Positions 1-9,834 of a stretch of 64,000 bases of DNA are shown piece by piece. Below the pieces are notes generated by a model, which was not told where the DNA came from, did no database searches, and worked only from the letters and a program-made list of their open reading frames with translations. The DNA comes from Streptococcus pneumoniae (GTDB taxonomy: Bacteria; Bacillota; Bacilli; Lactobacillales; Streptococcaceae), in contig NZ_CRPU01000001.1 in NCBI RefSeq assembly GCF_001096185.1, forward strand, positions 248,001-312,000. The letters are read 5' to 3'. Both the position numbers and the translations under genes were made by a program. The first letter of the stretch is position 1. Every line of letters begins with the position of its first letter.

Positions 1-9
1 ATTTACCAT
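1..9 (-). CDS. Start of a gene leaving the window (probably the glycyl radical enzyme of this operon)
   Basis: Only the first three codons (Met-Val-Asn) are in the window, read on the minus strand from the ATG at 7-9. An AAAGGTG ribosome site lies 6-7 nt upstream, and a sigma-A promoter plus two operator types precede it. In pneumococcal relatives the gene at this place, after a PTS IIC gene, encodes a pyruvate-formate-lyase-like glycyl radical enzyme (pflF). That identity is remembered synteny, not read from sequence. Confidence 0.4.
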
Positions 10-19
10 CGTAAGCACC

Positions 20-56
20 TTTCTTTCGAAAATATTTTTGTTTCTTTCGAAAATAT
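20..56. promoter_or_regulatory. Two 16-bp direct repeats, 21 bp apart: candidate DeoR-type operator
   Basis: TTTCTTTCGAAAATAT occurs exactly at 20-35 and again at 41-56. The CTTTCG core recurs 21 bp apart, which is two helical turns. CTTTCG/TTTCGTTT cores in direct repeat are typical of DeoR-family sugar operators. The pair lies at and just after the predicted transcription start of the gene at the left edge, where a bound repressor would block initiation. The same 21-bp CTTTCG spacing occurs before the activase gene near 4139. Confidence 0.6.
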
Positions 57-83
57 AATACATAATTTTTTAGAGAATTTCAA
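55..83 (-). promoter_or_regulatory. Sigma-A promoter for the left-edge gene
   Basis: Read on the minus strand: TTGAAA (78-83), a 17-bp spacer, then TATTAT (55-60). The element sits about 45 bp upstream of the ATG at 9. The DeoR-like direct repeats overlap its start region and the CACAAATGT motifs lie upstream of its -35. Confidence 0.65.
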
Positions 84-120
84 GCTTTTAACTAGAAAAA
101 CTTTAACTCTCTAATTTTTG

Positions 121-157
121 GCACAAATGTGTGTTTAATGATAATACACAAATGTTT
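121..157. promoter_or_regulatory. Two CACAAATGT motifs 25 bp apart: candidate activator (SorC-type) sites
   Basis: CACAAATGT is at 122-130 (within GCACAAATGTGT) and again at 147-155. The first copy starts 66 bp from the -10 box at 55, exactly as the GCACAAATGTGC motif does at the IIA promoter (2286 versus -10 at 2220). The conserved distance upstream of the -35 suggests an activator site. The adjacent SorC-family protein is the likely ligand; that assignment is inference. Confidence 0.5.
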
Positions 158-167
158 TTTACATTTA

Positions 168-1457
168 TCAAACTTCATTCTGATAAGCTAAACGATCCTG
201 CACTTTAAAGAATGGGAAATAAACCAATGTAGACATCGCTAATATCACCAGCTGAGTAATAACTCCTTGCCATCCACCAACCATAAATCCTGATATAATA
301 GCTGGGGTACTCCAAGGTAATGTAACTCCTGAAAATGGTTGCATGAAACCTGTTGCAATAGCTCCATATACTATAACAGCTGCAAGTACAGGAACAAGAA
401 TGAAAGGTACAAACATAACTGGATTCATAACAATTGGAAATCCAAATACAACTGGCTCATTTACGTTAAATATTGCTGGAAAAGCTGCTACTTTCCCTAA
501 GGCTTGGTACTGTTTCGATTTTGCTGCAAAAAGCATCGCAACTACAAGACCAAACGTAATCCCTGAACCAGATAGAATTAAAAATGAATCTAAAAACTGT
601 TGAGTAACAATATGTGCTCCATTTTCTAATGATAGATTACCAGAGGCTAACATAGCTTTATTAGCATCAAGATTAGATAAAAGCAGAGCTGTCACTACTC
701 CATTTACTACCGATTGCCCATGAACACCAAACCACCACAAAAATGATATAAAGAATGCAATTCCAATAGCACCATACAAAGATCCAGTTAAACCTTGCAA
801 CGGAACTTGAATAGCAGAATAAATCATTTCTATGAATGTTCCGCCATTAGTCAGTGACTTCGCTAAAATATATACAATCATAGAAAATAAGAAAATTACA
901 AATGCTGGAATCATTGCTTCAAACTGTTTCGCAATAGCTTGTGGAACTTGTTCTGGCATCTTAATAACAATTTTTCTCTTTATAAAGAAGGTATAAATAC
1001 TTCCTACTACCAAACCTATAATGATAGCACCGATAATCCCTTGACCTCCAAACCAAACTTTACTAATAGCATCCCCAATTGCCTCACCTTGTTTAGGGAT
1101 ATAAGATGATCTTAGCAAAATAAAGAATGCAGATACAGAAAGAACCCCAGCTGGCAATGCCTCTACTCCGCTATTCTTAGCATAAGAATAGGCAATTGAA
1201 AAACAAGAAATTAGACCCATAATAGCAAAAGTTCCTGAATAGACTTGCATAAAAGGCTCTGTCCAGTCTGCCCCAAATACACTAGCAATACTTTGATTCA
1301 ATCCTTCAAAGGGTAATTGCCCCATAATCAAGAATAAACTACCAACTACTGTCAATGGCAAAATCGCTAACATACCATCTTTTAGAGCTATAATACCACG
1401 CATATTCACAAACTTCATCATAGGTGCAATGATTTTTTGAACATCCATCTTTGCCAT
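168..1457 (-). CDS. PTS lactose/cellobiose-family EIIC permease
   Basis: This is the membrane translocation component of a phosphotransferase system, moving a sugar or polyol across the membrane while IIB phosphorylates it. The 429-aa protein has the length and multi-helix hydrophobic pattern of cellobiose-type IIC proteins, including the conserved NEPVVFG stretch near residue 330. The start at 1457 (MAKMDVQ) is preferred over the longer frame to 1481 because it has a GGAG site 8 nt upstream. It follows IIB after a 16-nt gap and precedes the left-edge gene. The substrate cannot be told from sequence; the neighbouring radical-enzyme genes suggest an unusual sugar rather than cellobiose. Confidence 0.9.
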   Translation of the reverse strand: MAKMDVQKIIAPMMKFVNMRGIIALKDGMLAILPLTVVGSLFLIMGQLPFEGLNQSIASVFGADWTEPFMQVYSGTFAIMGLISCFSIAYSYAKNSGVEALPAGVLSVSAFFILLRSSYIPKQGEAIGDAISKVWFGGQGIIGAIIIGLVVGSIYTFFIKRKIVIKMPEQVPQAIAKQFEAMIPAFVIFLFSMIVYILAKSLTNGGTFIEMIYSAIQVPLQGLTGSLYGAIGIAFFISFLWWFGVHGQSVVNGVVTALLLSNLDANKAMLASGNLSLENGAHIVTQQFLDSFLILSGSGITFGLVVAMLFAAKSKQYQALGKVAAFPAIFNVNEPVVFGFPIVMNPVMFVPFILVPVLAAVIVYGAIATGFMQPFSGVTLPWSTPAIISGFMVGGWQGVITQLVILAMSTLVYFPFFKVQDRLAYQNEV

Positions 1458-1473
1458 AATAAATCTCCTTTTC

Positions 1474-1782
1474 TTACCCACTAATCAAAGATAGGGCCAA
1501 ATCTAATACTTTTTTCCCATCTAACATACCATAGTCCATCATCGGAATAACAGCTATCGGAACATCACACTTATCACAAATTTCTTTTGACTTGTCTAAT
1601 GTATAAGCAACTTGCGGCCCCAATAATGCGACATCTATATTTGGAGCATAATCCGCTAATTTAGACTGAGAAAACGCCTCTATTTCTGCTTCAACTCCAC
1701 TAGCTTGCGCTGCAATTTTCATATTATTTACAAGCATACCAGTGGAAAATCCTGCTGCACAAAACAAACCAATCTTCACCAT
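1474..1782 (-). CDS. PTS lactose/cellobiose-family EIIB
   Basis: A cytoplasmic 102-aa phosphocarrier that passes phosphate from IIA to the sugar carried by IIC. The phosphocysteine loop is visible at the N terminus as LFCAAGFSTGML with Cys8, followed by the small residues typical of the P-loop of IIB(cel). Length matches the family (about 100 aa). A GAGGAGG ribosome site precedes the ATG. It lies between IIA and IIC in the same orientation, so the three subunits are separately encoded here. Confidence 0.92.
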   Translation of the reverse strand: MVKIGLFCAAGFSTGMLVNNMKIAAQASGVEAEIEAFSQSKLADYAPNIDVALLGPQVAYTLDKSKEICDKCDVPIAVIPMMDYGMLDGKKVLDLALSLISG

Positions 1783-1827
1783 TCTATTTTCCTCCTCTAT
1801 GTTAATAACAATGATAATACTCTAGTA

Positions 1828-2148
1828 TTATTTTTTATGAAGTTCTTTTCTCAAACTAATAATTTCTTTGATTAAATTAATCTCCGTCATACTAGTCATG
1901 AGATGATCTTGTGAATGAACAAAGAGAGCTGTTATTTCTGTCTTTGTACCAGACGCTTCCTGTGCCAAGAATTTTGTTTGTAGATTATGGGCTTCTAATA
2001 AGGCTGCATCAGCTAACTGGATTTCTTCTTCACATCGTTCACATGTACCGTTTTTTATATAATCTAACGCTTTATAAATATGTTGTTTCGCATCGCCAGC
2101 ATATAAAATTAAACCCATGATAATTTGATCTGGAACAATCATTTCCAT
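1828..2148 (-). CDS. PTS lactose/cellobiose-family EIIA
   Basis: A helical-bundle phosphocarrier (106 aa) that receives phosphate from HPr. The active-site histidine is in FVHSQDH (His78), the conserved signature of lactose/cellobiose IIA proteins. Start chosen at MEMIVP with GAGGAGG upstream. It is first in the IIA-IIB-IIC run and has its own sigma-A promoter (2220-2248), so transport genes can be expressed independently of the upstream regulators. Confidence 0.92.
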   Translation of the reverse strand: MEMIVPDQIIMGLILYAGDAKQHIYKALDYIKNGTCERCEEEIQLADAALLEAHNLQTKFLAQEASGTKTEITALFVHSQDHLMTSMTEINLIKEIISLRKELHKK

Positions 2149-2181
2149 AAATTCCTCCTCATTTCACTATGTAAAAAGCTT

Positions 2182-2212
2182 TTTTCATTTGAAATTTTAA
2201 AATTTTCTTTTG
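2182..2212. promoter_or_regulatory. Degenerate 21-bp repeat: weak candidate DeoR operator in the IIA leader
   Basis: TTTTCATTTG (2182-2191) and TTTTCTTTTG (2203-2212) are spaced by 21 bp, like the CTTTCG repeats at 20-56 and 4139-4170, but the CG step is lost. The pair is just downstream of the -10 box, the same general place as at the left-edge promoter. AT-rich sequence makes chance similarity possible. Confidence 0.3.
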
Positions 2213-2219
2213 TAACTAT

Positions 2220-2248
2220 AGAATACAACTACATCATAAACTTGTCAA
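2220..2248 (-). promoter_or_regulatory. Sigma-A promoter for the PTS genes
   Basis: On the minus strand: consensus TTGACA (2243-2248), 17-bp spacer, TATTCT (2220-2225). The predicted start gives a leader of roughly 65 nt before the IIA ATG at 2148. Confidence 0.75.
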
Positions 2249-2285
2249 TCTAAAAACAGCAAATAAACTATTTTTATTTATATAA

Positions 2286-2297
2286 GCACAAATGTGC
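2286..2297. promoter_or_regulatory. GCACAAATGTGC imperfect palindrome: candidate SorC-type site
   Basis: GCACA-AA-TGTGC is an inverted repeat lying about 38 bp upstream of the -35 box of the PTS promoter. The same motif stands at the identical distance (66 bp between motif start and -10 start) at the left-edge promoter. This is seen in sequence; binding by the neighbouring SorC protein is inferred. Confidence 0.5.
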
Positions 2298-2344
2298 AAT
2301 TGATTAAAAAGAAAAAACGATAAACTGATATCAGTCTATCATTT

Positions 2345-3325
2345 TCACTCGCATAAAATATTTCGAAAAGAAAAATCACCATCTTCTTCTAAAACTTTTA
2401 AAATTGTATTTTTATCTGTAATCAGATGATTTACTAGATTAGCACGCAAGACAGAAAGAATCGCAGATACTTTCGTATCACCGTAAGCTACAGCTAAACT
2501 TTGAGGAATATTTTTTAAATCTTCCAAAGAGATTGCTATCGTTCTTTCCTGTAAGTTCTCATAAACTTCTTTACCTTTTGAATCAAAAAATCGACAACAA
2601 ATTTCTCCTACAGTTTTAACTTTGGTCAATTCTTTAAAGTCATCCTCTGTAAGCATGTCTAACCATTGATGTTTTCCTTTATTGCTAAAATCACCAATTC
2701 CGACTACAGCTATATCTAAATCTTTCCAACTATTTTTCAAATCTTCAAAATATCTTGATTGCAAAATACCATCTGCTAACAATTTATTTTCTTGCACAAT
2801 TGTTGCATTCATAAATGTACACTCTCCATGAAATTTTCTAGACATTTCATAAATTAGTGTATTCACATGATATTTAGCGTGTATGTGACTAGGACCACCT
2901 GCTAGAGGATAGAAGTGAACATTTCGGACACTTTTGCTGTGGATTAAATCTACTAAATTACTTAAACTTTTCCCCCAAGAAAAGCCAATTTTCATATTAT
3001 CATCAATTAAATTCCTAAGGACACCTGCTGCAACTTGAGAAATTCTTTCAGATAAAATTGTTGGATTATCATCAAATTCATTTGGAATAATTTCTAAACT
3101 TTCCAGACCATATTTTTCTTTTACATAATTTTCCAACTTAAACATATTGGTATCAAAATTCTCTATTTCAATTTTAACAATTCCTGCATTCCTTGCTTCT
3201 GTTAACATTCTACTGATAGAGGTTCTATAAATTCCTAATTTTGCTGCTATTTGTGACTGATTTAAGTTTTCAATATAATACAGATAAGCAATTTTAGAGA
3301 GCAGTTTATTCCTATCTTGATTCAT
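2345..3325 (-). CDS. SorC/DeoR-superfamily sugar-binding transcriptional regulator
   Basis: A 326-aa regulator with an N-terminal helix-turn-helix (about residues 15-45; NLNQSQIAAKLGIYRTSISR) followed by a long C-terminal sugar-phosphate-binding domain of the SorC type. Proteins of this family bind a phosphorylated sugar or polyol and activate or repress a linked catabolic operon. It begins 12 bp after the DeoR gene, so the two are probably co-transcribed, and it stands just upstream of the PTS genes. The CACAAATGTG motifs are its most likely target. A local operon with two different regulators suggests two signals are integrated. Confidence 0.88.
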   Translation of the reverse strand: MNQDRNKLLSKIAYLYYIENLNQSQIAAKLGIYRTSISRMLTEARNAGIVKIEIENFDTNMFKLENYVKEKYGLESLEIIPNEFDDNPTILSERISQVAAGVLRNLIDDNMKIGFSWGKSLSNLVDLIHSKSVRNVHFYPLAGGPSHIHAKYHVNTLIYEMSRKFHGECTFMNATIVQENKLLADGILQSRYFEDLKNSWKDLDIAVVGIGDFSNKGKHQWLDMLTEDDFKELTKVKTVGEICCRFFDSKGKEVYENLQERTIAISLEDLKNIPQSLAVAYGDTKVSAILSVLRANLVNHLITDKNTILKVLEEDGDFSFRNILCE

Positions 3326-3337
3326 ACACTTAACCTC

Positions 3338-4084
3338 TTACGAAACTACCTTAACCATTATCCCAGCATTTTCTAATGTAGCTATATTTTGTTTAGAAAG
3401 TTTTTCGTCTGTTATTACTTCATAGACTTGACTTAAAGCAAATCTTCTTACCGTACCCCTTTTATCAAATTTACTTGAGTCAGTTAGCACAATGACTTTA
3501 TCCGACGCTGCTGAAATATATTGAACTACCTCACTGCGCATTAAATCTTTTCCTGTAAAGCCCATCTCTTTATCGTAGCCATCTGTCCCAACAAAAGCTT
3601 GACGCACATGAAAAGTCTGTATCATTTCTTTTAATAAAGGTCCTACGGTAACCTGTGAATCTTTCTGAAACTCACCACCAAGAACAATAACACGACATGA
3701 ATCATAACCTCTTACAAAATTTGCTATAAAAAATGAATTTGTTACAATAGTGACATTTCTTTTTTGCTTGCAAATTTCCTCAGCAAGTAAAGCACAGGTT
3801 GAACCAGATTCTATCATTATTGTTTCATTATCTGACACCAATTTTACTGCTTCCTGAACAATTTTTCTCTTAATTTCATAATTAATTGACAAGCGTACAT
3901 TTAAGTCATCTCCACTATTTAACACAGCATATCCATGCTCTCTGTGTAATAAGCCTTTTGACTCTAATTTATCTAAATCTTTTCTAATCGTTACTTTCGA
4001 TACATTTAATTTTTCCGATAATGTATTAACATCAATCTTTTCATATTCTGATACTAATTTAATAATTTGTTCCAATCTTTTCAT
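3338..4084 (-). CDS. DeoR-family transcriptional repressor
   Basis: The N-terminal winged helix-turn-helix (VNTLSEKLNVSKVTIRKDLD) and the C-terminal DeoRC effector domain are both present. Such proteins usually repress sugar-phosphate operons until a phosphorylated intermediate binds. I start it at 4084 (MKRLEQ), which has GGAGG 6 nt upstream, giving 248 aa; an open extension to 4132 lacks a ribosome site. It is divergent from the activase gene. The intergenic region carries a CTTTCG direct repeat that probably serves autoregulation and control of the activase. Confidence 0.88.
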   Translation of the reverse strand: MKRLEQIIKLVSEYEKIDVNTLSEKLNVSKVTIRKDLDKLESKGLLHREHGYAVLNSGDDLNVRLSINYEIKRKIVQEAVKLVSDNETIMIESGSTCALLAEEICKQKRNVTIVTNSFFIANFVRGYDSCRVIVLGGEFQKDSQVTVGPLLKEMIQTFHVRQAFVGTDGYDKEMGFTGKDLMRSEVVQYISAASDKVIVLTDSSKFDKRGTVRRFALSQVYEVITDEKLSKQNIATLENAGIMVKVVS

Positions 4085-4138
4085 TTTACACCTCCGTTTT
4101 ATTCTACCAAAATAAAAAGCAAAAAACAACAAATTAAA

Positions 4139-4170
4139 CTTTCGTTCGTAATTGTTTTTCTTTCGTTTTT
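4139..4170. promoter_or_regulatory. CTTTCG direct repeat between deoR and activase: candidate DeoR operator
   Basis: CTTTCGTTCG at 4139-4148 and CTTTCGTTTT at 4160-4169 are 21 bp apart, the same spacing as the repeats at 20-56. The site lies in the divergent promoter region, upstream of a possible -10 (TAGAAT, 4180-4185) for the activase. A convincing -35 was not found, which fits a weak or regulated promoter. Confidence 0.6.
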
Positions 4171-4205
4171 GTGATAGGATAGAATTATAAAGAGGAGGAA
4201 CTCTT

Positions 4206-4982
4206 ATGGAAATATCTAAAGGAATTATTTTTAATATTCAACACTTTTCAATTCATGACGGTCCGGGTATTCGTACAACTGTTTTTTTAAAAGGATGTCC
4301 TCTGCGCTGTCCATGGTGTTCTAATCCTGAATCTCAAAGAATGAAACCTGAAAAAATGAAAAATGCTCAACGAGAGAAATTCACTTTAGTAGGTGAAGAA
4401 AAAACTGTAGAAGAAATTATTACAGAAGTATTGAAAGACAAGGAATTTTACGAAGAATCCGGTGGGGGGTTAACTTTATCTGGAGGTGAAATATTTGCTC
4501 AGTTTGAATTTGCTAAAGCCATCTTAAAGTCAGCTAAAGAACATCACATACACACTGCCATTGAAACTACTGCCTTTGTTGATCATGAAAAATTTGTTGA
4601 TTTAATCCAATATGTGGATTTTATCTACACAGATCTAAAACATTATAATTCTATAAAACATAAAAAAGTGACTGGGGTCTTTAATCAAATGATTATTAAA
4701 AACATTCATTATGCTTTTTCTCAACATAAAACTATCGTTTTAAGAATCCCAGTTATCCCTGATTTTAACAATAGTTTAGAGGATGCAGAAGAATTCGCTA
4801 CTTTATTTAACTCATTAAATATCGACCAAGTTCAACTACTCCCTTTTCATCAATTTGGTGAAAACAAATATCGTTTATTAAATCGGAAATATGAAATGGA
4901 TGGAGTCAACGCACTTCATCCTGAAGATCTTATTGATTATCAAAAGGTATTTCTGAACCATCATATTAATTGTTATTTCTAG
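4206..4982 (+). CDS. pflE: Glycyl-radical enzyme activating enzyme (radical SAM)
   Basis: Generates the glycyl radical on a partner enzyme using S-adenosylmethionine and a [4Fe-4S] cluster in the cytoplasm under anaerobic conditions. The radical SAM cysteines are in KGCPLRCPWC (C-x3-C-x2-C, near residues 30-37), preceded by the family signature HDGPGIRTTVF. LTLSGGE near residue 97 is the glycine-rich SAM-binding motif. At 258 aa it lacks the ferredoxin-like two-cluster insert found in many dehydratase-type activases, so it resembles PflA-size proteins. AGAGGAGG precedes the ATG. The likely partner is the enzyme starting at the left edge, which would be controlled by the same CTTTCG operators. 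Confidence 0.88.
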   Translation: MEISKGIIFNIQHFSIHDGPGIRTTVFLKGCPLRCPWCSNPESQRMKPEKMKNAQREKFTLVGEEKTVEEIITEVLKDKEFYEESGGGLTLSGGEIFAQFEFAKAILKSAKEHHIHTAIETTAFVDHEKFVDLIQYVDFIYTDLKHYNSIKHKKVTGVFNQMIIKNIHYAFSQHKTIVLRIPVIPDFNNSLEDAEEFATLFNSLNIDQVQLLPFHQFGENKYRLLNRKYEMDGVNALHPEDLIDYQKVFLNHHINCYF

Positions 4983-5156: not shown

Positions 5157-6806
5157 ATGTCTCATTCCTTTAAAAAATCTCTCCAAAAAGAAATTCTCCA
5201 TAGAAGCTCTATCGCAGCCTTTATGACCTCTCTTTTACTACTCATTTTACTTTTTGGTTTTTCCTATTTTTTACAAAAGCAACAACTCTCCAAAGACACG
5301 AGACAGATTGTCAAACAAGTTCAAGAGATGAAAGAAGCAAATAATGAGCTCCTGACTACTATGAACCATAAAATGATTCCTGAATTTTTGGACGGCAAAC
5401 ACACAGAGAGAGAAGTCTTCAGCTTATTTTATGAGACAAAAGCTAAATTAAAACTTAGTTCTGACCTCATTATCCTAAGTGATACAGGTGAATTACTATT
5501 CAGTACCAATCGCAATCATCAAGAAAGTATTTTATCTCCCTACTATCTAAAACTGCTCATTCAAAATCCTTCTCAAGAAAAAGTGACAGAAAAAATTGCA
5601 CTCTCTTCAGATAAGCAACATTACACACTCTTTATCAAACCACTACTTCAAAACCAACGAGTTATAGCCTATACGATTGCTTTCGTAAATGAGAATGATT
5701 TCATCTCAAGTTTCCCAATGATCAATTCCAAATACATCATTACCGATAGCTTTGGAAATATGTTTTCCAACAATACAAATCAGTTTACTCGTTCCACTCT
5801 TGAAAAATTGGATGAAAAACTCCTACACTCTCGCACCCACTGGTATGCGAATGAACCGCTTATTGTTCAAAAAGAAAAAGTCGGTGCTATTTTTTCAATC
5901 TATACTTTTCAATCCTTTTTTCCCATTCCTAGCTTACTCGGCCTAGCCTCTGTCCTCACCTTATGTATATTCTTCCTCTACTTCTGGCAAGCGAGACGAA
6001 TTGCTCATAAGATTGCCACACACAATGCTATTCCTATTGAAAGTCTGGTTTACCAACTTCAAGAAATTCCTAAACAAGCAGAAAAAAGACTTTCTCTACA
6101 AACAGGTGATGAGTTTGAATTTATGGCAGAAAAAATCAACAATATGTTGTACGAATTAGATCAACTTCATCAAAAAATGTTGACCATCGAAAAAGAAAAG
6201 TGGATTTTTGAAAGAAAAATGCTGGAAGCTCAGTTCAATCCTCATTTTCTCTACAATACACTTGAGACGATTAAAATCACTTCTTTAATGGATGCAGCTC
6301 TCACACAAGACCTAATTCAAAATCTCACGCGCATTCTTCGCTACAGCATCACGGATTTAGAAAAGGAAACAACCATTTGTCAGGATTTAAAGATTATAGA
6401 GGATTACCTGATGATTCATAAGATTCGTTTTGAGCACTTTTCTTATGATATTGTCTGTCCAGAAACTGTCGATAATCAGCCTATTCCTAAGCTTTTCTTG
6501 CTTCCTCTAGTAGAAAATGCTATAAAATATGGGATGCAATACCGTATTGATCTTCATATTGATATCCAAATTACCTTGGAAGCAGATTCTCTAACTTTTT
6601 TAGTCAAGGATAATGCTGGAGGACTCACCAAACAAGAGCGACTCGCTATTTTAGACTCTTTAGAAAGCCCTCATACCCAGCATGGCATCGTGAACAGCTA
6701 CAAACGATTGAGCAATTTCTTTTCTGATGTCCAGCTAGATCTAGGAGTCAATCGCCAAGGAGAAACTTGGGTCAAATTTGTAACGAAAGGACTAACTCAT
6801 GTTTAA
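5157..6806 (+). CDS. YesM-type membrane sensor histidine kinase
   Basis: A 549-aa sensor kinase. One membrane helix at about residues 20-40 and a second near 255-277 enclose an extracellular sensing domain, followed by a HAMP-like linker and coiled coil. The phosphoacceptor box EAQFNPHFLYNTLE (His363) is the His_kinase family type seen in YesM/LytS kinases. ATP-lid motifs LVENAIKYG and DNAGGL follow. It overlaps the response regulator gene by 8 nt, so they are translationally coupled. YesM-type kinases in Firmicutes usually sense extracellular carbohydrates, often through the binding protein of a linked ABC transporter. The lipoprotein at 7684 is the obvious candidate here. Confidence 0.9.
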   Translation: MSHSFKKSLQKEILHRSSIAAFMTSLLLLILLFGFSYFLQKQQLSKDTRQIVKQVQEMKEANNELLTTMNHKMIPEFLDGKHTEREVFSLFYETKAKLKLSSDLIILSDTGELLFSTNRNHQESILSPYYLKLLIQNPSQEKVTEKIALSSDKQHYTLFIKPLLQNQRVIAYTIAFVNENDFISSFPMINSKYIITDSFGNMFSNNTNQFTRSTLEKLDEKLLHSRTHWYANEPLIVQKEKVGAIFSIYTFQSFFPIPSLLGLASVLTLCIFFLYFWQARRIAHKIATHNAIPIESLVYQLQEIPKQAEKRLSLQTGDEFEFMAEKINNMLYELDQLHQKMLTIEKEKWIFERKMLEAQFNPHFLYNTLETIKITSLMDAALTQDLIQNLTRILRYSITDLEKETTICQDLKIIEDYLMIHKIRFEHFSYDIVCPETVDNQPIPKLFLLPLVENAIKYGMQYRIDLHIDIQITLEADSLTFLVKDNAGGLTKQERLAILDSLESPHTQHGIVNSYKRLSNFFSDVQLDLGVNRQGETWVKFVTKGLTHV

Positions 6807-7572
6807 GCTCATTATCGTAGAGGATGAACACCTCATCCGAAAATGGCTAGAGATTGCCGTAGACTACTCTGCCTTAGGCATCCAAGTCGTAGGAACTGCC
6901 AGTCACGGTCAAGAGGGAATGAAACTCATCCAAGAAAAAGAACCTCATATTGTCTTAACAGACATCACCATGCCAATTATGGATGCTTTTATGATGTTTG
7001 AAGCCACTCGTACCCTTCCCTATGAAAAAGTTATCTTATCAGGTTATAACGATTTTCAAAATGCTAAAAAAGCCATGCAATATGGAGCAGTTGATTTCTT
7101 ATCCAAGCCAATTGATACCAAGGAATTGACAGAATGTCTTCAAAACATTGTTTTGCGATTACAAGGTAGCATCTATCAAGAAACTCCTTTTTTAGAAGAA
7201 TATCAAACTTTACTCACCTCTATCCAACAGGTTGATACACAAAACCAAATCATTCAACAAATTATTTCCTTTGTCCACAAGCATTATGCAGAGCATTTTA
7301 CGATTGCGACTATTGCTGAAGCTTTAAACTATAGCGAAAGCTATCTATATAAGGTTATCAAAGAAGACTTCCCCATGACTCTAAATGAATATATCTTACA
7401 ATATCGCCTGAAACAAGCTATAGATAAGATGGCTGAATCTCCCAACTCCCCTCTAAGCGACATCTCTGATCAAGTTGGATTTTCAGACTATAAATATTTT
7501 GCCAAAGTATTTAAAAAGTATCTCCATATTTCCCCAAAGGAATTGAAATCACTCGGAAGAATAGTAAAATAA
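6799..7572 (+). CDS. YesN-type response regulator with AraC DNA-binding domain
   Basis: A receiver domain (residues 1-120; acidic pocket near E8/D9, phosphoacceptor Asp55 in LTDITMP, Lys in SKP) is joined directly to a C-terminal AraC two-helix-turn-helix domain (about 155-255; IATIAEALNYSESYLYKVIK and DISDQVGFSDYKYFAKVFKK). At 257 aa it is shorter than most YesN proteins because the central linker is reduced. It is expected to activate the downstream ABC operon, whose promoter region contains a 20-bp-spaced GTTTTAAAA repeat, a typical AraC-type geometry. This assignment is inference. Confidence 0.9.
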   Translation: MFKLIIVEDEHLIRKWLEIAVDYSALGIQVVGTASHGQEGMKLIQEKEPHIVLTDITMPIMDAFMMFEATRTLPYEKVILSGYNDFQNAKKAMQYGAVDFLSKPIDTKELTECLQNIVLRLQGSIYQETPFLEEYQTLLTSIQQVDTQNQIIQQIISFVHKHYAEHFTIATIAEALNYSESYLYKVIKEDFPMTLNEYILQYRLKQAIDKMAESPNSPLSDISDQVGFSDYKYFAKVFKKYLHISPKELKSLGRIVK

Positions 7573-7622
7573 GCTATTCTTCTTTTTGTAGAGAATTTTA
7601 CTCTAATAGAATAGAATTGTCG

Positions 7623-7651
7623 GTTTTAAAAACGCTTACACTGTTTTAAAA
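7623..7651. promoter_or_regulatory. GTTTTAAAA direct repeat, 20 bp apart: candidate response-regulator site
   Basis: GTTTTAAAA is at 7623-7631 and 7643-7651, about 50 bp before the lipoprotein ATG. AraC-family activators commonly bind direct repeats spaced by about two helical turns. The repeat brackets the cre-like sequence. No convincing -35/-10 pair was assigned; TAAAAT at 7647-7652 is a possible -10. Confidence 0.4.
7627..7640 (+). promoter_or_regulatory. cre-like CcpA site before the ABC operon
   Basis: TAAAAACGCTTACA matches the cre consensus TGWAARCGYTWNCW at 13 of 14 positions. Its place in the promoter region suggests carbon catabolite control. That would be unexpected for a dedicated iron transporter and expected for a sugar or sugar-phosphate transporter. 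Confidence 0.55.
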
Positions 7652-7683
7652 TAAACTTAAATAACACAACGGAGGTATCCATC

Positions 7684-8730
7684 ATGAAAAAGAAATGGAT
7701 GTATTATGCTGCTTGCGGACTAGCTCTTTTTGGTCTTGCTGCTTGTTCTTCTAATGAATCTGCCGATGGCGGTTCATCTGATAAAGGAGACGGCGGTTCG
7801 CTAGTCGTTTATTCACCAAACTCAGAGGGCTTAATCGGAGCAACTATTCCTGCCTTTGAAGAAAAATATGGTATCAAAGTAGAACTGATTCAAGCTGGTA
7901 CTGGAGAACTTTTCAAAAAACTAGAGTCAGAAAAAGAAGCTCCTGTAGCTGATGTCATCTTTGGTGGTTCTTATACACAATATGCTACCCACGGAGAACT
8001 CTTTGAAAACTACACTTCAAAAGAAAATGATAATGTTATCAAAGAATATCAAAACACAACTGGCTACTCTACTCCTTATACACTAGATGGTAGTGTTTTA
8101 ATCGTCAATCCTGATTTAACGAAAGGCATGAACATCGAAGGATATAGCGATCTTCTCAAACCTGAACTAAAAGGAAAAATTGCAACTGCTGACCCAGCAA
8201 ACTCTTCTAGTGCCTTTGCTCAATTAACAAATATGCTCCAAGCTCAAGGTGGCTACAAAGATGATAAAGCTTGGTCTTATGTAAAAGATCTCTTCACACT
8301 TATTGATGGGAAAATCGGTTCAAGTTCATCTGGTGTCTATAAAGCAGTCGCTGACGGAGAAATGGCTGTTGGTCTCTCTTATGAAGATCCAGCAGTTAAA
8401 CTCTTAAATGACGGAGCTAACATCAAGGTAGTCTATCCAAAAGAAGGAACCGTCTTCCTACCTGCTAGTGCTGCTATCGTTAAAAAAGCGAAAAACATGG
8501 AAAATGCCAAGAAATTTATCGATTTTATTATCTCTCAAGAAGTACAAGATACACTTGGCACAACCACTACTAACCGTCCTGTTCGTAAAAATGCTAAAAC
8601 AAGCGAAAATATGAAACCAATTGACAAAATCAAAACACTCACTGAAGATTATGATTATGTCATCAAGAATAAATCAGATATTGTTAAGAAATACAACGAA
8701 GTCTTTACAGATATCCAATCTAAACAGTAA
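7684..8730 (+). CDS. ABC transporter substrate-binding lipoprotein (Fe3+/AfuA-like family)
   Basis: The 348-aa lipoprotein has a basic, hydrophobic signal ending in the lipobox LAAC with lipidated Cys21, then a low-complexity Gly/Ser/Asp linker and a periplasmic-binding-protein type II fold (LVVYSPNSEGLI start, typical of the ferric-ion-binding/AfuA family). It would sit on the outer face of the membrane and deliver ligand to the fused permease. The pneumococcal homolog is annotated as iron-compound binding. Related AfuA proteins bind hexose phosphates, and the cre-like site and the YesMN-type system upstream favour a carbohydrate-type ligand. The ligand is unresolved. Confidence 0.85.
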   Translation: MKKKWMYYAACGLALFGLAACSSNESADGGSSDKGDGGSLVVYSPNSEGLIGATIPAFEEKYGIKVELIQAGTGELFKKLESEKEAPVADVIFGGSYTQYATHGELFENYTSKENDNVIKEYQNTTGYSTPYTLDGSVLIVNPDLTKGMNIEGYSDLLKPELKGKIATADPANSSSAFAQLTNMLQAQGGYKDDKAWSYVKDLFTLIDGKIGSSSSGVYKAVADGEMAVGLSYEDPAVKLLNDGANIKVVYPKEGTVFLPASAAIVKKAKNMENAKKFIDFIISQEVQDTLGTTTTNRPVRKNAKTSENMKPIDKIKTLTEDYDYVIKNKSDIVKKYNEVFTDIQSKQ

Positions 8731-8742
8731 AAGAGGTTCACT

Positions 8743-9834
8743 ATGAGTGAGATCAAAATTATTAACGCCAAAAAAATCTACCACGACGTCCCTGTTATTG
8801 AGAATTTGAACATTACAATTCCAAAAGGAAGTCTCTTTACCCTTCTTGGACCTTCAGGATGTGGTAAAACGACTCTTCTTCGTATGATTGCAGGTTTCAA
8901 CAGTATCGAAGGCGGAGAATTTTACTTCGATGATACAAAAATCAATAATATGGAACCCAGCAAACGCAATATTGGGATGGTTTTCCAAAACTACGCTATT
9001 TTCCCACATTTGACTGTTCGAGACAATGTTGCTTTTGGTCTCAAGCAAAAGAAGGTTCCAAAAGAAGAATTGATTCAACAGACCAACAAGTATCTTGAAC
9101 TCATGCAAATTGCTCAATATGCGGATCGGAAGCCCGATAAACTTAGTGGTGGACAACAACAACGTGTCGCCTTGGCACGCGCCTTAGCGGTTAATCCAAG
9201 TGTTCTCCTCATGGACGAGCCACTTAGTAATCTGGATGCCAAACTTCGCTTGGATATGCGTCAAGCCATCCGAGAAATCCAACACGAAGTGGGAATTACA
9301 ACTGTTTATGTGACCCACGACCAAGAAGAAGCCATGGCGATTTCAGACCAAATTGCTGTTATGAAAGACGGAGTCATCCAACAAATCGGCCGACCAAAAG
9401 AACTCTATCATAAACCAGCTAATGAGTTTGTAGCAACCTTTATCGGACGCACAAATATTATCCCTGCCACTCTTGAAAAACGGAGCGACGGCGCTTATAT
9501 CGTCTTTTCAGATGGCTATGCCCTTAGAATGCCAGCTCTTGATCAGGCTGAGGAACAAGCTATTCATGTAAGTATTCGTCCTGAAGAGTTTATCAAAGAT
9601 GAATCTGGAGATATTGAAGGAATTATTAGCGATAGCGTCTATCTTGGACTGAATACTGAATACTTCATCGAGACAGGTTTTGCCTCAAAAATTCAAGTTA
9701 GCGAAGAATCAACTTTTGAAGAAGATCTACAAAAAGGCGATCGTATTCGTCTACGAATCAATACTCAAAAATTAAACGTCTTTTCTGCAGATGGTTCCCA
9801 AAACTTGATAAAAGGAGTCAACCATGGAACGTAA
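8743..9834 (+). CDS. ABC transporter ATP-binding protein (FbpC/AfuC-like, with TOBE domain)
   Basis: A 363-aa ATPase. Walker [10 protein letters not shown] is near residues 37-45, the Q-loop in FQNYAIFPH, the signature LSGGQQQR, Walker [12 protein letters not shown], and the H-loop in VTHDQEEA. The C-terminal 130 residues form a TOBE-like regulatory domain, as in MalK/PotA/FbpC proteins. It starts 12 nt after the lipoprotein stop and overlaps the permease by 11 nt, so all three are one operon. Confidence 0.93.

Follow-up and report, generated by a model that had tools for sequence, protein, structure and literature searches.

A streptococcal glycyl radical enzyme cluster with a dedicated phosphotransferase system is a probable operon for 1,5-anhydroglucitol catabolism

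Introduction

The left end of a 64,000-nucleotide stretch of the Streptococcus pneumoniae genome (assembly GCF_001096185.1, contig NZ_CRPU01000001.1, positions 248,001 to 312,000; G000:C1:248001-312000 in our numbering), the whole of which we call the window, carries part of a gene cluster built around a glycyl radical enzyme (GRE) and a phosphotransferase system (PTS). Here we argue that this cluster is probably a catabolic operon for 1,5-anhydro-D-glucitol (AG, 1-deoxyglucose). An earlier note on the same DNA had proposed an anhydrosugar (radical glycolysis) operon in place of a pyruvate formate-lyase (PFL) operon, a proposal supported by the genes of the left half, the GRE tree, active-site residues, a fold comparison and co-occurrence across genomes.

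By published annotation, the S. pneumoniae genes SP_0245-SP_0253 have the same content as the cluster described here, and in the passages concerned they are read as serving mixed-acid fermentation or formate metabolism, with no substrate named (PMC3302838, PMC6722419). The PTS among them, SP0248-9-50, is one of two that were left without a substrate in a systematic screen, and its neighbours are given as two regulators and pfl-like, aldolase and gldA genes (PMC3302838).

Gene content of the locus

Read from right to left, the cluster begins with an activase gene on the plus strand, followed on the minus strand by genes for DeoR, SorC, EIIA, EIIB, EIIC and the GRE. The remainder of the GRE gene, a gene for a fructose-6-phosphate aldolase (FSA)-like protein and gldA were located in a left extension of the contig (L003, G000:C1:236001-254000; genome size 2.1 Mb). 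Positions are those of the window unless prefixed with L003.

4206..4982, plus strand: radical SAM activase of the glycyl radical enzyme, 258 aa, divergent from the operon (NCBIfam TIGR02494, 289 bits against a cut-off of 174)
3338..4084, minus strand: DeoR-family regulator (Pfam DeoRC and HTH_DeoR), ATG start with a ribosome-binding site
2345..3325, minus strand: SorC-type regulator with a sugar-binding domain (Pfam Sugar-bind PF04198, 284 bits)
1828..2148, minus strand: PTS EIIA, Lac/cellobiose family (Pfam PTS_IIA; 97.7 bits, under the Lac-specific NCBIfam cut-off of 136.95)
1474..1782, minus strand: PTS EIIB, Lac/cellobiose family (Pfam PTS_IIB; 86.8 bits, under the NCBIfam cut-off of 110)
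168..1457, minus strand: PTS EIIC, Lac/cellobiose family, 429 aa, a relative of 3qnq (TIGR00410, 383.6 bits against a cut-off of 236)
1..9, minus strand: first codons of the GRE, a predicted 1,5-anhydroglucitol-6-phosphate lyase (remainder at L003:9571-12009)
L003:8884-9552, same strand as the GRE: FSA-like aldolase
L003:7777-8865, same strand as the GRE: gldA (glycerol dehydrogenase)

The likely ATG of the GRE lies at 9-7, which places three codons of the 812-aa protein inside the window. For DeoR we took the ATG with its ribosome-binding site in place of the mechanically called open reading frame, which extends to 4132 from a TTG; the EIIC ATG has AAGGAGA in front of it. Intergenic gaps measure 158 nt between EIIC and GRE, 18 nt between GRE and FSA, and 18 nt between FSA and gldA, after which comes leuS (assigned by its sequence).

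The earlier note had recognized a cellobiose-type PTS, SorC, DeoR and a radical activase in the visible half, all of which were confirmed by profile matches. It had also judged that only half of the cluster was in view and had predicted, from the edge leftwards, a PFL-like GRE, an FSA-like aldolase and a glycerol dehydrogenase; all are present in that order, including the aldolase and dehydrogenase on which the proposal had been made to depend. GRE, activase, FSA-type aldolase, GldA-type dehydrogenase and PTS uptake genes are found together in this one cluster.

The EIIC matches the Lac/cellobiose model TIGR00410 and falls under the cellobiose equivalog TIGR00359 (383.6 against 434.45 bits), on which ground cellobiose transport was rejected. 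We also rejected import of an AG-containing disaccharide, which would phosphorylate the non-reducing sugar and free unphosphorylated AG; an AG kinase would therefore still be needed, and the operon contains none. Two other streptococci have a 421-aa gene at the position of the PTS; considered as a transporter, it proved to encode a triple Rid-domain protein. At these loci (L101:8558-9826 and L077:11397-12662) a protein of 421-422 aa with three fused Rid (Ribonuc_L-PSP) domains, determined from L101, lies between SorC and the GRE.

The FSA-like aldolase scores 416 bits against NF009299 (cut-off 214), and its Lys87 and Tyr133, the Schiff-base Lys and the Tyr of FSA enzymes, are invariant with those of FsaA and FsaB; the roles of these two residues are presumed. 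The GldA reaches the subfamily model NF006941. The activase has a 41-aa stretch with 0 Cys where E. coli YbiY has 85 aa with 6 Cys, and so differs from YbiY in having no Cys-rich, ferredoxin-like insert.

Lactobacillales activases of this clade have a mostly Cys-free stretch of about 41 aa at the insert position, including all 30 Streptococcus activases listed from 31 loci (short stretch, 0-1 Cys), while E. coli YbiY and many Erysipelotrichaceae and Lachnospiraceae activases have an insert of 81-97 aa, mostly with 6-10 Cys. The short form also occurs in nine matched loci outside the Lactobacillales and in the PflC-type activase of one Streptococcus locus, L097; 23 of 124 activases did not match the pattern used and were left uncounted.

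Placement of the glycyl radical enzyme

The GRE is 52% identical to E. coli YbiW and 37% identical to E. coli PflD, and 98-99% identical to S. mitis records; by this last figure its genome belongs to the mitis group, as S. pneumoniae does. It has a single active-site Cys and no CC anywhere in the protein, and hence none of the adjacent active-site cysteines of PFL, whereas the genome's own PFL, encoded elsewhere on the contig, carries SCCVS. Against the PFL model TIGR01255 it scores 186 bits, with a cut-off of 994. The claim of the earlier note that this is not a PFL operon is upheld by these observations.

An alignment of 148 rows was built from the query, YbiW, PflD, the glycerol dehydratase 1r8w and 144 sequences from fetched loci, in which 125 rows (query and YbiW counted) share 50% or more identity with the query and are referred to as its clade. 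Cys445 and Glu447 (the CxE motif) and the C-terminal glycyl-radical Gly788 align with Cys433, Glu435 and Gly763 of glycerol dehydratase, and His174, His290 and Ser291 align with its His164, His281 and Ser282, so that the query has the single-Cys CxE motif and glycyl-radical Gly of the YbiW family. We assume functional roles for the aligned dehydratase residues, Asp447 included (C. butyricum numbering). At the Asp447 site, where glycerol dehydratase and PflD both have Asp, the query has Gly460, and Gly is found in 124 of the 125 clade rows, YbiW among them. PflD also has Ser at the His281 site. Neither PflD nor glycerol dehydratase has the clade residue at a further 39 positions, each conserved in 97% or more of the clade rows. 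Clade-conserved stretches lie at 172-174, 290-291, 341-356, 445-462 and 653-665. The comparison with YbiW and PflD that the earlier note had called for has thus returned YbiW-like residues, with Gly where PflD has Asp.

In a quick maximum-likelihood tree of 61 of the 148 rows, with PFL not included and long-branch warnings for L151/L162, L095 and L086, the query and YbiW fall in one 39-row branch (SH-aLRT 100), which splits into sister sub-branches of 31 rows (the query's) and 8 rows (YbiW's). PflD groups elsewhere with one Streptococcus sequence (L097) and one Lactobacillus sequence, and glycerol dehydratase lies outside. Bit scores likewise group the GRE with YbiW. In the fold comparison, the GRE model fits YbiW with bound 1,5-anhydroglucitol-6-phosphate (AG6P; PDB 8id7) best, tied with 6xs4, and the next-best PDB relatives are the glycerol dehydratase 1r8w and a propanediol dehydratase.

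Taken together, these comparisons support placing the GRE with the AG6P lyase YbiW and not with PFL, PflD or glycerol dehydratase. Because of the identity to YbiW, the model fit and the replacement of Asp by Gly, AG is the likelier substrate. The earlier note had left anhydroglucitol and anhydromannitol as a pair; the former stands on identity (52% against 37%), residues and tree, and the latter has become less likely.

In two Treponema GREs (L156:2671 and L157:4424), which share 57% identity with the query and 69% with one another, the catalytic Cys is replaced by Gly or Trp. The Glu and glycyl-radical Gly are retained, and the GDAH motif is altered too. They could be decaying genes, errors in metagenome-assembled genomes or enzymes with another activity.

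Candidate operators

Repeated motifs stand before the genes of the cluster, of which we infer that the tandem repeat is the operator of DeoR and the palindrome that of SorC.

20..49, minus strand: tandem direct repeat CGAAAGAAA-N12-CGAAAGAAA, candidate DeoR operator, just before the GRE start
4136..4165, minus strand: weaker repeat of the DeoR type in the deoR-activase intergenic region (3 mismatches, not above the genome-wide control)
2286..2297, plus strand: palindrome GCACAAATGTGC, candidate SorC operator, before EIIA
121..132, plus strand: degenerate version of the SorC palindrome, in front of the GRE, 1 mismatch to GCACANNTGTGC

Both the tandem repeat at 20-49 and the palindrome at 2286..2297 are the sole matches to their patterns at 0 mismatches in their own genome. 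With at most 3 mismatches, the repeat is expected 0.02 times in shuffles of L003 and has 10 matches genome-wide against 10 in the control. At 1 mismatch, the palindrome is found twice in the window against 1.40 expected from shuffles, which is not above chance, and 6 times genome-wide against 9 for the reversed-pattern control. We accordingly give weight to these candidate operators only for their exact matches and their conservation across loci. Of 31 Streptococcus loci, 26 have the repeat WCGAAAGAAA-N10-WWCGAAAGAAA (at most 3 mismatches) in front of the GRE; the figures are 4 of 31 for loci from other Lactobacillales and 1 of 72 for further loci. As a longer motif (at most 1 mismatch), the palindrome precedes the GRE in 21 of the 31 Streptococcus loci, the present one not among them; for the form TGCACANNTGTGCA (at most 1 mismatch in 12) the counts are 21/31, 11/31 and 0/72, with shuffles giving 0.00, 0.00 and 0.03, respectively. 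In pneumococcus, sites for the regulator PflR have been listed before SP0245, SP0246 and SP0251 (PMC3302838), in agreement with where the tandem repeat is found, and public S. pneumoniae regulon lists put PflR in the region of the DeoR gene.

Several GRE loci of other Lactobacillales have the palindrome and no SorC gene, some of them also without FSA. SorC was sought in 20 GRE-positive genomes, some having the palindrome and some not, and 16 loci were fetched. Twelve of these hold a SorC homologue of at least 39% identity, with the palindrome nearby in 10/12 and FSA beside it or one gene off in 7/12; the four more distant SorC loci have neither. In five genomes (G365, G229, G357, G345 and E. 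hulanensis) the palindrome occurs before the GRE and, on another contig, by FSA, which ties GRE and FSA to one regulon independently of adjacency. G812 and G300 have the palindrome at FSA only, the sequence before their GRE showing 5 and 6 mismatches, whereas in G398 and G400 it occurs both at the GRE and near a SorC gene that has no FSA beside it.

Distribution and neighbourhood

Among 147 genomes of the genus (own genome included), 48 have a YbiW-type GRE of at least 82% identity, 46 in one piece (in G036 over about 716 residues), one split (G105) and one partial (G108). The cluster is also present in S. sanguinis BCC31 (L140). Of the 48 GRE-positive genomes, 40 have an EIIC of at least 78% identity, against 0 of the 99 GRE-negative genomes (Fisher p 2e-28, inflated by relatedness). 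For FSA of at least 66% identity the corresponding numbers are 47/48 and 0/99, and 8/99 have an FSA of 41-64%. One GRE-less genome carries a 64%-identical FSA (G013:C1:17807-18451), perhaps a remnant or the partner of another enzyme.

A GRE match at E 1e-150 was obtained in 34 of 295 Lactobacillales genomes sampled, and 21 of the 34 are from other genera. Among these 21, an EIIC of about 80% identity occurs in 2, against 0 of 46 GRE-negative genomes tried (p 0.09, a weak association), and EIIC homologues of 41-47% are present in both sets. A phylum sample of 398 genomes gave 17 GRE matches at E 1e-180, down to 39% identity.

We also counted genes within 6 kb of the GRE at 134 loci, among which near-duplicates (e.g., L044/L104) make these counts, and likewise the operator counts above, non-independent. 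The 31 Streptococcus loci have activase in 30, DeoR in 31, SorC in 29, EIIC in 25, FSA in 31 and GldA in 28. Those of other Lactobacillales (31) have activase in 28, DeoR in 30, FSA in 14, SorC in 6, EIIC in 4 and GldA in 1, and in the 72 further loci, of which many are truncated at contig ends, the counts are activase 51, DeoR 37, FSA 31 and GldA 0. From these counts, the core consists of activase, DeoR and GRE, less regularly FSA, and the phosphorylating module varies. Co-occurrence and common candidate operators support a tie between PTS, GRE and FSA.

Other genes recur at some of these loci. A ROK-family gene (family from representatives) lies within 3 kb of the GRE in 18 of the 72 further loci and one other Lactobacillales locus. 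No transporter shared across non-Lactobacillales GRE loci was seen among about 18 inspected representatives of the 45 largest unassigned neighbour-gene clusters. A GH4-family glycosidase (cluster representative) within 8 kb of the GRE, in L041, L044, L081, L082, L088, L104 and L119, perhaps feeds sugars into the pathway. In the window itself, the genes to the right of the activase (5157-9834) encode a sensor kinase, response regulator, extracellular solute-binding protein and ABC ATPase, as read by eye from translations, and apparently form a separate transport operon.

Proposed pathway and alternative readings

In the pathway that we propose, the Lac-family PTS would import AG and phosphorylate it to AG6P, and SorC and DeoR would sense a sugar phosphate, leading to derepression. 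The radical-SAM activase would set the glycyl radical on Gly788 of the GRE, which via Cys445 would open the C-O ring bond of AG6P to give 1-deoxyfructose-6-phosphate. This would be split by the FSA-like aldolase into glyceraldehyde-3-phosphate and hydroxyacetone, and GldA with NADH would reduce the latter to 1,2-propanediol. Glyceraldehyde-3-phosphate would go into glycolysis, which would make the route redox-neutral and oxygen-independent. Every catalytic and regulatory step in streptococci is deduced from gene content, order, homology, residues, co-occurrence and conserved candidate operators.

The later aldolase and GldA steps of the E. coli pathway are reportedly covered in the work of Ma et al. 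2024. A review of that study states that E. coli phosphorylates AG and anhydromannitol by PTS and cleaves them by YbiW and PflD, YbiW converting AG6P to 1-deoxyfructose-6-phosphate (PMC12441222). The chemistry would hence be ordinary, and the streptococcal AG branch appears to be new and well supported. Among the matches listed, whose coverage was thin for subscription journals and had Ma et al. 2024 outside it, no paper linked anhydroglucitol to a streptococcal operon. The cluster resembles E. coli YbiW/YbiY/FsaA and GldA in GRE clade, catalytic and clade-specific residues, activase, FSA-family aldolase and GldA-family dehydrogenase. It differs in having all parts together with a dedicated Lac-family PTS, SorC and DeoR, whereas in E. 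coli ybiW-ybiY-fsaA lies apart from gldA, and the 11-kb stretch viewed there has nine features, none of them a PTS gene. The aldolase also belongs to another FSA subfamily (NF009299) than FsaA, to which it is 37% identical.

We take SMU.493 to be the S. mutans orthologue of the cluster GRE. Deletion of this gene (pfl2) left pyruvate use as in the wild type, unlike pfl and pflA mutations (PMC7355876). The D39 strain has two pflB-like genes, of which an earlier study named spd0420 as the PFL (PMC5214746). For S. anginosus, a comparison in duplicates of a plasma-based medium (0.5% glucose) with artificial saliva (0.25% glucose) gave fold inductions of 122 for gldA, 104 for fsaA, 146 for GRE, 30 for IIC, 49 for IIB and 33 for IIA, a cluster that the authors do not discuss in that section of the paper (PMC12282319, which also names the public serum RNA-seq set GSE285825).

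Several points weigh against the assignment to AG, among them the confounding in the serum data. PTSs of the Lac family usually transport disaccharides, which makes AG uptake by this one a guess. The two media of the S. anginosus study are very different, and induction extended to glycogen, dha, maltose and competence genes (PMC12282319); orthology in that species is based on annotation and gene order only. From their own data the S. mutans authors leave open whether Pfl2 is a PFL (PMC7355876), and a very weak PFL activity of spd0235 was likewise left open (PMC5214746). Eight GRE-positive genomes of the genus (8/48) and 19 of 21 from other Lactobacillales genera are without the EIIC, so the PTS is not obligatory. 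Outside Streptococcus, PTS, FSA and GldA beside the GRE are irregular, with GldA near it in 1/31 and 0/72 loci and FSA in 14/31 and 31/72. The aldolase, at 37% identity to FsaA, stays under TIGR00875 (178 bits, cut-off 246), and GldA is under the E. coli-type propanediol dehydrogenase equivalog NF047954 (417 against 700).

The alternative that survives best, though we regard it as unlikely, is C-O ring-opening on another phosphorylated anhydro- or deoxy-sugar. The query's sub-branch (31/39 rows) is sister to YbiW's (8 rows) and does not have YbiW inside it, the PTS family prefers disaccharides, and aldolase and GldA score below the E. coli-type models. AG6P is favoured by the same set of partner enzymes and by the residues that the query has in common with YbiW, the 39 clade positions among them.

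It is also quite unlikely that the GRE cleaves the mannose-configured 1,5-anhydromannitol-6-phosphate, as PflD does. The remaining pathway would be common to both substrates, and PDB 8id0 is a Streptococcus PflD with anhydromannitol-6-phosphate. E. coli pflD-pflC-frwBCD and fsaB-gldA, together with this S. dysgalactiae PflD, make up a parallel anhydromannitol-6-phosphate branch of GRE, activase, PTS and FSA, which differs from the present cluster in a GRE of 37% identity, other residues at the aligned sites and Frw-type in place of Lac-type PTS genes. We rejected a PflD-type enzyme by phylogeny and residues: identity is 37% to PflD against 52% to YbiW, the 39 clade positions differ from PflD, and PflD-type GREs lie on another branch, with a separate PflD-Frw-FSA cluster in L097. 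That locus (G106:C2), from the same genus, holds SorC, PtsA-like, FrwB, FrwC, PflD (60%), PflC (44%) and FSA, and is probably the anhydromannitol branch.

It is very improbable that the operon serves a dehydratase of glycerol or 1,2-propanediol working with GldA, the aldolase being incidental. GldA is present and dehydratases are the next-best PDB relatives, but Asp447 is replaced by Gly throughout nearly all the clade, on which we rejected this function; PTS and aldolase are ill-suited to glycerol, FSA travels with the GRE, and inspection by eye of the reading frames of the window and L003, the outer neighbours being judged in this way only, showed no gene for a microcompartment or a 1,3-propanediol dehydrogenase. 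A second PFL operon, as in the historic annotation (pfl2, pflF, PflR, "formate metabolism"), has the PFL-like fold, the repression of pflF by CcpA on glucose (PMC6603136) and the weak spd0235 activity in its favour and is extremely improbable, given the missing Cys pair, for which we rejected it, the TIGR01255 score and the wild-type pyruvate use of the S. mutans mutant, in which the role of Pfl2 was called unclear (PMC7355876).

Biological implications

AG is present at about 150 uM in blood, where it is the most abundant polyol and undergoes negligible metabolism in the body (PMC10439028). In blood and saliva it serves as a marker of glycaemia; salivary AG is lower in caries-active children (PMC6383396), and plasma and saliva AG correlate negatively with glycaemic measures (PMC12849494). 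It is conceivable, if somewhat doubtful, that streptococci including the pneumococcus group have a dedicated serum-inducible PTS and radical pathway by which they use host AG in blood, saliva and tissue fluid.

SP_0245-53 is among the loci that separate S. pneumoniae from S. mitis, S. pseudopneumoniae and S. oralis, since all 13 S. pneumoniae have it (100%), as do 20% of 20 S. mitis, against 0% of 3 S. pseudopneumoniae and 0% of S. oralis (PMC6722419). The assignment to AG offers a testable substrate for a conserved pneumococcal PTS and replaces a misleading annotation as a second PFL or "formate metabolism" operon. If streptococci do feed on host AG in the way outlined above, that would explain why these genes are kept in pneumococci and absent from most commensal relatives, and which substrate the orphan PTS SP0248-50 of pneumococcus takes up. 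Streptococci would then be able to consume a clinical marker of glycaemia, and the niches in which they grow, the fate of oral AG and salivary assays would need reconsideration.

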